NCBI RefSeq assembly: GCF_033100135.1
Contig: NZ_CP136920.1
Location: forward strand, 1,302,001 to 1,366,000
Source of the DNA: Rubellicoccus peritrichatus
Lineage (GTDB): Bacteria > Verrucomicrobiota > Verrucomicrobiia > Opitutales > Cerasicoccaceae
Reading direction: 5' to 3'
DNA: 64,000 bases
Both the position numbers and the translations under genes were made by a program. Shown here in pieces: positions 4,374 through 6,861 of the stretch. The notes under the pieces were generated by a model. It did not search any database. It was given only the letters and a program-made list of their open reading frames with translations, and was not told the DNA's origin. How positions within the stretch are numbered: the stretch's first letter is position 1; every line of letters begins with the position of its first letter.

Positions 4374-5171
4374 ATGGCACAAATCGGCATATGCATCTGG
4401 TCCATCCCTGGCTCCAGTGATCGGGAGAAAATTCAACTCGCGTCAACCTGCGGACTGGATGGGGTTCAACTTGAGCTCGGTGGATATGAAGAAGGCTTTC
4501 CACTTTCGAAAAAGGAACGCCAGCAGGAGGCAATTGCACTTAGGGACGACTTGGGTATTCTTTATCCAACACTTGGGCTCAATGTCTTTTGCGGACATTC
4601 TGCAACGAATCAAAAAGACCATGATATCATTCGACGTGCGATTGATTGTGCATTGGAAACAGCTCTCGCTCTGGATATTAAGTTGCTGCAGTGCCCAAGT
4701 TTTTTTGCCAGTGAGATCAAAGACGAAGCCGGTCTGGAAAACACAGCCAAGATTTTTCAATACGCTTGTCGGCAGGCAGCGGATACTCCGGTCTTGGTTT
4801 CCAGCGAAAATATTCTTCAGCCTGATGCATTGTCCGAATTGGTTAAAGCTGTGGATGCACCAAATTTCCGCATTTATTTTGATACTGCCAATCCATATTG
4901 GATGGCAGGAATGCCGGCAATTCCATTACTCGATGCAGCTTTGCCTTGGCTTGCTGAAGTGCACTTGAAGGAATCCAAAGACGATGGTTCTGCTGCCTTT
5001 CTTGGCGAGGGGGACAGCGATTTCTTTGCTACCTTCAATCATCTTATGAAAGCCAACTATGCCGGCTGGTTGGTTTTGGAAAATGGATATGGCAAGCTTA
5101 TGTCCGAGCGTAGTTCATCTGCCGAAGAAGTCATCCGTGCCGATCTTAAAATTGTTCGTGATCAATTTTAG
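4374..5171 (+). CDS. Sugar phosphate isomerase/epimerase (AP endonuclease 2 superfamily)
   Basis: A 265-residue protein with the TIM-barrel fold of the xylose isomerase-like / AP-endonuclease-2 family. The likely metal-binding positions appear in the usual order at strand ends: Glu in SSENIL, Asp in YFDTAN, His in EVHLKES and Glu in LVLENGY. Enzymes of this family isomerise or epimerise sugars, inososes or hydroxypyruvate-type substrates; the substrate here is not determinable. The N-terminus (MAQIGICIWSIP) starts directly with the first barrel strand, supporting the ATG at 4374. It leads a rightward run with the FAD oxidoreductase 47 bases downstream. Confidence 0.8.
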   Translation: MAQIGICIWSIPGSSDREKIQLASTCGLDGVQLELGGYEEGFPLSKKERQQEAIALRDDLGILYPTLGLNVFCGHSATNQKDHDIIRRAIDCALETALALDIKLLQCPSFFASEIKDEAGLENTAKIFQYACRQAADTPVLVSSENILQPDALSELVKAVDAPNFRIYFDTANPYWMAGMPAIPLLDAALPWLAEVHLKESKDDGSAAFLGEGDSDFFATFNHLMKANYAGWLVLENGYGKLMSERSSSAEEVIRADLKIVRDQF

Positions 5172-5218: not shown

Positions 5219-6280
5219 ATGCTTGATTGCGACTATCTCATCATCGGACAAGGCCTGGCTGGAAGTCTGCTTGCCTGGGAGCTGATTGCCACCGGGAAGT
5301 CTGTTTATATTTTGGATGATGGACATTTGAGTGCCTCATCCAAAGTCGCGGCTGGTATGATTAATCCTCTGGCGGGAAAGCGGCTGGCGTTATATCCGGA
5401 GACAGATGCTTTTCTGGAAAGGGCAAAATATACCTACACCAACTTAAGGGAAAAGCTGGGGCAGACCTTTTTCCATGAGTTGCCCATATTGCGCTTACTT
5501 CAGGACGAAGCTGAATCGACACGTTATGAGGATCGAAAGCTTGATTCCGAATTTGATTCTTATCTTGGAGGCGGCTGGATGCTGGGGAGTGGATCCTTTG
5601 CACTCGGAGATGAGTTGGGCGGCTTTATGACGTGTCGTTCCGGTTGGGTGGACGTTCCCGCATTGATCTCTGCTTTGAGGACGTACTTTACTGATGCAGA
5701 TGCTTTGATCCCCGAATCATTTACGCATAGCGATTTGCTTGTTGGAGAAAATACGGCTACATGGCGAGGCGAAGTCAGGGCCCAGCAGGTTGTCTTTTGC
5801 GAAGGTTGGAAAGGGCGAGATAATCCCTGGTTTGATTGGTTGCCATGGGATCCTGTTAAAGGAGAGATTCTGAGCTTGGACATAAAGGGCATTCCCCGTG
5901 ATCGTATTCTCAATCGCGGGAAATGGCTTGTCCCGGGGCCAGCGGGGACTTTTCGCGCTGGATCGACTTACACACGCGACAGTCTTGATCTTGAGCCAAC
6001 CAGGGAGGGGCAAAGTGAGATTCTGTTTGGATTGTCCAAACTGCTTCCCAACCTATCCTATCAAGTCGTTGATCACCTGGCGGGCATTCGCCCCGGTAGC
6101 CGAACGCAGCATCCGCTTATCGGTCGGCACCCTAAGTTTCCACAGCTGGGTCTTTTTAATGGTTTTGGCTCAAAAGGAGCCTTGCTAATTCCGTTGTGCT
6201 CAAAACATTTAGTTTCTTACTTTAGTTCCGATATACCACTACCACCCAAAGTAGATATTCACAATCGATGGCCGACATGA
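5219..6280 (+). CDS. DAO-family FAD-dependent oxidoreductase, possible MnmC(o)-type tRNA enzyme
   Basis: A 353-residue flavoprotein of the D-amino-acid-oxidase fold. The FAD-binding motif DYLIIGQGLAGSLLAWEL is at residues 4-21. Conserved segments follow at AAGMINPLAGKR (about residue 44) and near the C-terminus at GIRPGSRTQHPLIGRHP and LFNGFGSKGALLIP. The family oxidatively cleaves secondary amines of glycine-like groups (glycine oxidase, or the oxidase domain of MnmC). The gene overlaps the next start codon by ATGA, and that gene encodes an MnmM-like tRNA methyltransferase. I therefore infer that it may convert cmnm5(s2)U34 of tRNA to nm5(s2)U34. The superfamily is certain; the substrate is inference from context. 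Confidence 0.75.
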   Translation: MLDCDYLIIGQGLAGSLLAWELIATGKSVYILDDGHLSASSKVAAGMINPLAGKRLALYPETDAFLERAKYTYTNLREKLGQTFFHELPILRLLQDEAESTRYEDRKLDSEFDSYLGGGWMLGSGSFALGDELGGFMTCRSGWVDVPALISALRTYFTDADALIPESFTHSDLLVGENTATWRGEVRAQQVVFCEGWKGRDNPWFDWLPWDPVKGEILSLDIKGIPRDRILNRGKWLVPGPAGTFRAGSTYTRDSLDLEPTREGQSEILFGLSKLLPNLSYQVVDHLAGIRPGSRTQHPLIGRHPKFPQLGLFNGFGSKGALLIPLCSKHLVSYFSSDIPLPPKVDIHNRWPT

Positions 6281-6861
6281 CCGGAAGCAGACGACAGTCT
6301 TTGACTGAAAAAGCCCAGGCAAAAATTGCCAAAGTTTTGTCTTATGGCGACTACGCGGTTGATGCGACTGTCGGCAATGGAAATGATACTTTTTTTCTCG
6401 CTGATCATGTCGGCCCCGAAGGTGCAGTGGTCGGTTTCGATATTCAGGAGCTTGCCTTGCATCGCGCAACAGCAGTCTTGGGCGAGGCACAACTGCTTCA
6501 GCGTGTTAAGCTGGTGCAGAAAAGTCATCATCGTATGGCGGAATTTGTGCCGGACGACTGGCATGGCAAGATCAAAGCGATCATGTTCAATTTAGGCTAT
6601 CTGCCAAGGGGCGATAAGAGTGTCATCACCCAAGCCGATACGACCATCCTGGCGCTGGAAGCTTCGATCAAAATATTGGCTGTCGGCGGTCGCATGACTG
6701 TGGTTGCCTATACAGGACATGATGGCGGGCAGGAGGAGACCAATGCGATTCGCGAATGGCTTCGTCCGCTTACGATTTCACACTATGATGTAGAAATGAT
6801 CCCGGCTGAAGTGCAAACATCCGGAAGCCCGGAGTTGTATGTGATCACTCGAACGGATTGA
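6277..6861 (+). CDS. mnmM: MnmM/YtqB-type tRNA 5-aminomethyl-uridine methyltransferase
   Basis: A class I SAM-dependent methyltransferase of about 194 residues in the rRNA_methylase/YtqB family. The SAM loop is DATVGNGNDTFFLA, the acidic ribose-binding strand is VVGFDIQ, and the family hallmarks MFNLGYLPRGDK and VVAYTGHDGGQEE are present. Family members methylate nm5(s2)U34 to mnm5(s2)U34 at the wobble base of tRNAs in bacteria without the MnmC methylase domain. The ATG at 6277 overlaps the stop of the upstream flavoprotein gene as ATGA, indicating translational coupling; an in-frame ATG at 6268 is the alternative. The family assignment is strong. Confidence 0.85.
   Translation: MTGSRRQSLTEKAQAKIAKVLSYGDYAVDATVGNGNDTFFLADHVGPEGAVVGFDIQELALHRATAVLGEAQLLQRVKLVQKSHHRMAEFVPDDWHGKIKAIMFNLGYLPRGDKSVITQADTTILALEASIKILAVGGRMTVVAYTGHDGGQEETNAIREWLRPLTISHYDVEMIPAEVQTSGSPELYVITRTD

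Follow-up and report, generated by a model that had tools for sequence, protein, structure and literature searches.

The last two steps towards mnm5(s2)U34 are combined in the bifunctional MnmC of E. coli and other bacteria, in which a DAO-fold oxidase, MnmC(o), carrying GS[KR]G and an Arg within GxR, is joined to the PF05430 methylase MnmC(m) in one polypeptide. In Firmicutes, MnmM (YtqB) is reportedly served by MnmL (YtqA), which Jaroch et al. 2024 are said to have described there as a radical SAM protein. A table that forms part of a 2025 review places MnmL beside MnmC (PMC12548931). Part of the literature on MnmC already proposes a glycine-oxidase-like mechanism for MnmC(o), reports that MnmC does not turn over glycine or sarcosine to a significant extent, and gives Aquifex as an example of a stand-alone MnmC(m), in which half of the MnmC job is separated (PMC3648344); such a protein is also named MnmD. 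In one part of their article, Cho et al. 2023 describe the MnmC(o)-like enzyme as unknown wherever an organism has MnmM or an orphan MnmC(m), and report there, for three Gram-positive bacteria compared with E. coli, no fusion or operon of an oxidoreductase and a methyltransferase (PMC9976899). Our literature search, with most subscription papers (among them the J. Bacteriol. article of 2024 on MnmL) outside its scope, listed no work on a flavoprotein that partners MnmM, so an earlier mention is possible.

The window analysed here, a 64,000-nt stretch of the Rubellicoccus peritrichatus genome, carries at 5219–6861 on the forward strand a pair of overlapping genes for which the same two reactions are proposed. 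The evidence makes it highly probable that these two genes make up a pathway for the final two steps of mnm5(s2)U34 synthesis, with an MnmC(o)-like oxidase that forms a clade of its own and occurs in several phyla together with MnmM or stand-alone MnmC(m). The oxidase resembles that of bifunctional MnmC in its DAO fold, GS[KR]G motif and conserved Arg; unlike bifunctional MnmC, the locus has two genes rather than one polypeptide and MnmM as its methylase, and the oxidase belongs to a different clade and scores under the MnmC1 cut-off. With the MnmL–MnmM system of Firmicutes it shares the methylase and a supply of nm5U from an enzyme of another kind, which here would be a flavoprotein. With stand-alone MnmC(m) it shares the separation of the two halves, although the methylase is MnmM. 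The upstream gene (5219..6280, +) encodes a protein of 353 aa, assigned by PF01266, clade and fold model as a DAO-fold FAD oxidoreductase and proposed as a stand-alone cmnm5(s2)U34 oxidase. Two starts are possible for the downstream gene: ATG 6277 gives an ATGA overlap (6277..6280, +) formed by the alternative MnmM start codon and the oxidase stop codon, and the in-frame ATG 6268 gives a 13-nt overlap with the oxidase. The ATGA overlap claimed in the first-pass annotation therefore holds if MnmM starts at 6277 and is replaced by the longer overlap if it starts at 6268. The gene overlap suggests translational coupling of the two proteins, and a physical complex between them is possible.

The downstream gene (6268..6861, +) encodes 197 aa from ATG 6268 or 194 aa from ATG 6277. 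Its product passes the NCBIfam MnmM equivalog NF053511 (193 bits against a cut-off of 135), matches PF06962 (141 bits) and aligns with the YtqB/MnmM chains 8h0s and 4pon, which bears out its earlier assignment as a YtqB/MnmM tRNA nm5(s2)U34 methyltransferase. According to part of the study of B. subtilis MnmM, that enzyme becomes nearly inactive on change of D34, N101, Y104, K110, Y141, H144 or K11 (PMC9976899); in the alignment to 8h0s, D34, N101, Y104, K110, Y141 and H144 are identical in the window MnmM (6/6), with K11 outside the aligned part. Asn108 of the window protein (within FNLGYLP; 6589..6591, +) aligns with N101, the catalytic Asn proposed in part of that study (PMC9976899). The window MnmM is thus predicted to convert nm5(s2)U34 to mnm5(s2)U34. 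MnmM was also matched in 13 phage records, all at <60% identity, the five listed being short unannotated contigs.

The source genome (single contig, 5.80 Mb, completeness 97.5%) was searched for the rest of the pathway. MnmE (329.5 bits) and MnmG (738.6 bits over the frame) both exceeded their cut-offs and adjoin at 1038446–1041687, and a PF05430 search of the whole genome gave no match, so that it contains no detectable MnmC methylase domain; the check for mnmC, mnmE and mnmG suggested in the first-pass annotation thus came out in favour of the pair. A search with TIGR01212, the family of YtqA/MnmL, likewise gave no match in this genome at E 1e-15. Because E. coli also matches TIGR01212, a match cannot show MnmL, and only the absence in this genome is used here. 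Neither a bifunctional mnmC nor a TIGR01212 protein was matched at any other place in the genome, and both possibilities were rejected.

The main Pfam match of the flavoprotein is DAO (PF01266, 111 bits), in keeping with the DAO-fold flavoprotein first proposed at this position, and no PF05430 domain is present in it. Its top-scoring NCBIfam model is that of ThiO (TIGR02352, 95.2 bits, below the cut-off of 250.8), and it scores 75.7 bits with the MnmC1/MnmC(o) equivalog domain TIGR03197 (cut-off 174.2), so neither model names it. NCBIfam release 20.0 holds no model of this family; the ThiO and MnmC models hit each of the 62 members tested. The AlphaFold2 model of the flavoprotein has a mean pLDDT of 96.3; among solved structures it matches glycine oxidases best (Z 37.3, rmsd 2.6), E. 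coli MnmC follows at a slightly lower score (Z 34.6, rmsd 2.8, 341 residues), sarcosine oxidases have the same fold, and the comparison does not separate ThiO from MnmC(o).

Three motifs stand out in the alignment. The dinucleotide (FAD) binding GxGxxG spans residues G10–G15 (5246..5263, +), with G10, G12, A14 and G15 invariant in 62/62 aligned members. Arg291 (AGxRP; 6089..6091, +), also present in 62/62 members, aligns with the Arg of E. coli MnmC GVRxxTxD and of ThiO AGxRP. NGFGSKG (residues 314–320; 6158..6178, +) aligns with LGSRG of MnmC, so that an MnmC-type GS[KR]G replaces the H[YH]RNG of ThiO; at position 319 the 62 aligned members have K (56), R (5) or H (1). Glycine oxidase binds glycine through Arg residues that match the positions of Arg291 and Lys319. 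On the basis of this alignment, Arg291 and position 319 are proposed to hold the carboxylate of cmnm5U. In the proposed pathway, MnmE/MnmG with glycine would place cmnm5 on the wobble uridine to give cmnm5(s2)U34; the flavoprotein, which would have to bind tRNA, would grip the carboxymethyl-amine through Arg291 and Lys319; FAD would oxidise the C-alpha to N bond to an imine, whose hydrolysis would release glyoxylate and leave nm5(s2)U34; and MnmM would methylate the latter to mnm5(s2)U34.

In three trees (44, 87 and 24 rows) the family members grouped in a single clade, distinct from ThiO and bifunctional MnmC, with support of 100/99, SH-aLRT 100 and 100/100, respectively. MnmC(o) was placed as nearest kin at 97/88 in the 44-row tree and 94/89 in the 24-row tree, and the ThiO alternative was not rejected (p-AU 0.084); kinship with MnmC(o) over ThiO is thus weakly favoured by the sequences. 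A Listeria monocytogenes flavoprotein (L139) scores 102 bits with the oxidase profile described below yet branches outside the family, of which it is possibly a distant relative.

Among the rival explanations, the one that survives best holds that the flavoprotein is a small-molecule amine oxidase, i.e., the glycine oxidase ThiO or its kin, which would act in thiamine or amino-acid metabolism and stand beside MnmM by accident. It draws on the closest solved folds being glycine oxidases (Z 37) and on TIGR02352 giving the top NCBIfam score, though below the cut-off. By analogy, the flavoprotein and ThiO would both oxidise a glycine-like C–N bond. However, GSKG stands in place of H[YH]RNG, the clade is separate, and nothing in the genome exceeds the ThiO cut-off, the best ThiO match being the flavoprotein itself. 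ThiH, by contrast, is above its cut-off (421.9 bits). ThiH is a source of dehydroglycine for thiamine synthesis, which therefore has another supply of it in this genome. No thi genes adjoin the flavoprotein, its window neighbours belonging to other families; annotated ThiO genes adjoin thiS and thiazole synthase on two of three plasmids, a linkage that is common and not general. The ThiO reading also fits poorly with the co-occurrence with MnmM or MnmC(m) and with the adjoining MnmM genes in Verrucomicrobiota, Methylococcales, Nitrosomonas, Mariprofundus and Omnitrophota, described below. We regard it as improbable; the motif, the clade, the score below the cut-off and the ThiH match led us to reject ThiO identity itself.

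For co-occurrence, a set of 194 Verrucomicrobiota genomes, drawn evenly, was searched with an oxidase profile (A1) built from seven paired oxidases (match threshold E 1e-15), and MnmM was counted above its cut-off. MnmM was present in 28/194 genomes and A1 matches in 45/194, comprising all 28 MnmM genomes and 17 of the 166 others. On whole frames the oxidases of the MnmM genomes scored 159–578 bits with A1 in 26 of the 28 genomes; those of the other two gave 196.6 and 199.2 bits in the genome search, in which the weakest oxidase, that of G178, was split into two pieces of ≤86.9 bits. Three of the 17 matches without MnmM (G046, G047 and G074) were weak, at just 61.7–75.1 bits, since such scores fall within the range of the ThiO and MnmC references (46–83 bits; a Halomonas and a Listeria DAO protein scored 99 and 102). 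With these three left out, a Fisher test on the 194 genomes, with kinship ignored, gave P = 1e-23. Within a single genus (g26), the oxidase occurred in 10/10 genomes with MnmM versus 1/7 without (P = 0.0006 (6e-4), again with kinship ignored).

The other 14 genomes with the oxidase and without MnmM were of several kinds. Six, all of family f20, hold PF05430 in a protein whose size fits a stand-alone enzyme (frames of 255–326 aa), and three (G085, G088 and G160) have PF05430 in a frame of 691–725 aa, which by Pfam is a Tgt fusion in G085 and G088. In G146 the oxidase locus as examined is incomplete, and G193 has the oxidase without MnmM or another known methylase. The last three, G169, G181 and G091, have the oxidase (loci L123, L124 and L125, respectively) and no known methylase, with no MnmM above the cut-off and no match to PF05430 or TIGR01212; such genomes would either use a third methylase or end the pathway at nm5U. 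Three of the 28 MnmM genomes (G128, G039 and G172), all among the seven paired ones, also hold a TIGR01212 protein, which argues against a strict division of labour and makes a radical SAM route possible there. One further MnmM genome, G134, has two oxidase copies on different contigs (L101/L040 and L102).

The pairing itself recurs. With 1.5 kb of flank examined, the oxidase gene immediately precedes MnmM, with both on one strand, in 7/28 MnmM genomes of the phylum, window included, and the MnmM genes of the other 21/28 have no oxidase within 1.5 kb. When a species-genome collection was scanned with A1, at least 377 relatives were confirmed and the best 80 were kept as named loci, which form a ranked sample and not a census. 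MnmM is present on the same strand in 39 of these best 80 loci: its frame overlaps the oxidase frame downstream in 35, lies ~0.2, 0.7 and 2.6 kb downstream in three, and lies upstream in one (L151, Omnitrophota). Overlaps in the named loci are approximate, as start codons there were picked by script. Paired loci include Methylococcales, Nitrosomonas, Mariprofundus and Verrucomicrobiota, and also Omnitrophota. Neighbouring genes in 7/28 MnmM genomes and a common locus in 39 of the best 80 show that the coupling of oxidase and MnmM is not by chance, and the question raised at first pass of whether such pairs recur in other Verrucomicrobiota is answered by their recurrence there and beyond and by the oxidase in 28/28 MnmM genomes. 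No oxidase–MnmM fusion was detected among frames of ≥100 aa in the named loci. A xylose-isomerase-like TIM barrel gene (window 4374–5171) stops 47 bases 5' of the oxidase on the same strand; it and the other four of five flanking window genes had no match in the named loci, many of which are just 3.5 kb long.

For the 41 of the best 80 whose locus has no MnmM, the search covered the entire genome, as it did for eight of the other 39, which served as controls (n = 49). MnmM was found elsewhere in 13 of the 41, a stand-alone MnmC(m) without MnmM in 21 (PF05430 frames of 220–297 aa, E <1e-15), and neither strongly in seven, which are six metagenome-assembled genomes and the Emticicia agri draft, with PF05430 at 20.7–24.4 bits in three. 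None of the 49 genomes searched held both MnmM and PF05430 strongly, and PF05430 was not matched in the eight controls. In 21 of these 41 genomes, stand-alone MnmC(m) thus seems to take the place of MnmM with the same oxidase family, which ties the oxidase to the nm5U step rather than to one methylase. Two Omnitrophota loci illustrate this: in L146 the oxidase gene shares 8 bases with the gene of a stand-alone MnmC(m), in L151 the oxidase gene begins 7 bases past the MnmM stop (at the chosen start codon), and the two oxidases are sisters in the tree. The methylase has been swapped and the oxidase kept, which points to nm5U, the substrate common to both methylases, as the product of the oxidase.

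These partners bear on a second rival, in which MnmEG supplies MnmM with nm5U straight from ammonium and the flavoprotein has a different base of tRNA or rRNA as its target. According to part of one study, MnmEG of E. coli does yield nm5U with ammonium (PMC3648344), so the oxidase is not strictly needed; however, it accompanies both unrelated nm5U methylases, which points to the nm5U step, and in predicted fold and motif it agrees with MnmC(o), so that we consider this rival very unlikely. Just as doubtful is a writer/eraser pair in which the flavoprotein demethylates mnm5U as sarcosine oxidases act on N-methyl groups, an idea in line with the common fold and the close coupling to MnmM, but at odds with Arg291/Lys319, which lie where MnmC and ThiO carry Arg and fit a carboxylate substrate, as mnm5U has no carboxylate and the genome would be left without a known route from cmnm5U to nm5U. 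The original proposal, that the flavoprotein is the oxidase feeding MnmM and that the pair replaces MnmC, is instead supported by co-occurrence, recurrence and the absence of mnmC, and the flavoprotein would act as predicted from its fold and motif.

Other arrangements of pathway domains were also observed in the phylum. TIGR01212 and PF05430 share one open frame of 565–1037 aa in 40/194 genomes (e.g., G150:C1:2168402-2169934; L064, L084), apparently an MnmL–MnmC(m) fusion that, judging from these domain matches, would be a further arrangement of the same pathway. By Pfam, proteins of 678–728 aa in all four loci scanned (L114 in G088, L118 in G102, L119 in G085 and L121 in G045) join Tgt (queuine tRNA-ribosyltransferase) to a PF05430 domain like that of MnmC(m), and PF05430 frames of similar size, known from the PF05430 match and size, occur in G075, G098, G125, G140 and G160.

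Collectively, this family probably provides many bacteria with the stand-alone cmnm5U oxidase so far missing from their pathway, an oxidase that would pair freely with either of two unrelated methylases. The partner would be MnmM in Verrucomicrobiota, Methylococcales, Mariprofundus and Nitrosomonas, whereas Bacteroidota would use stand-alone MnmC(m), and a swap of the methylase is visible between sister Omnitrophota. The family offers a concrete, cloneable candidate, present in several phyla, for what Cho et al. 2023, in part of their article, described as an unknown MnmC(o)-like enzyme (PMC9976899). If this assignment is true, it would identify the enzyme sought for organisms with MnmM or an orphan MnmC(m) outside Firmicutes, the wobble-uridine pathway would be modular, with one oxidase and two interchangeable methylases, and the tRNA marks of these phyla would become predictable from their genomes.
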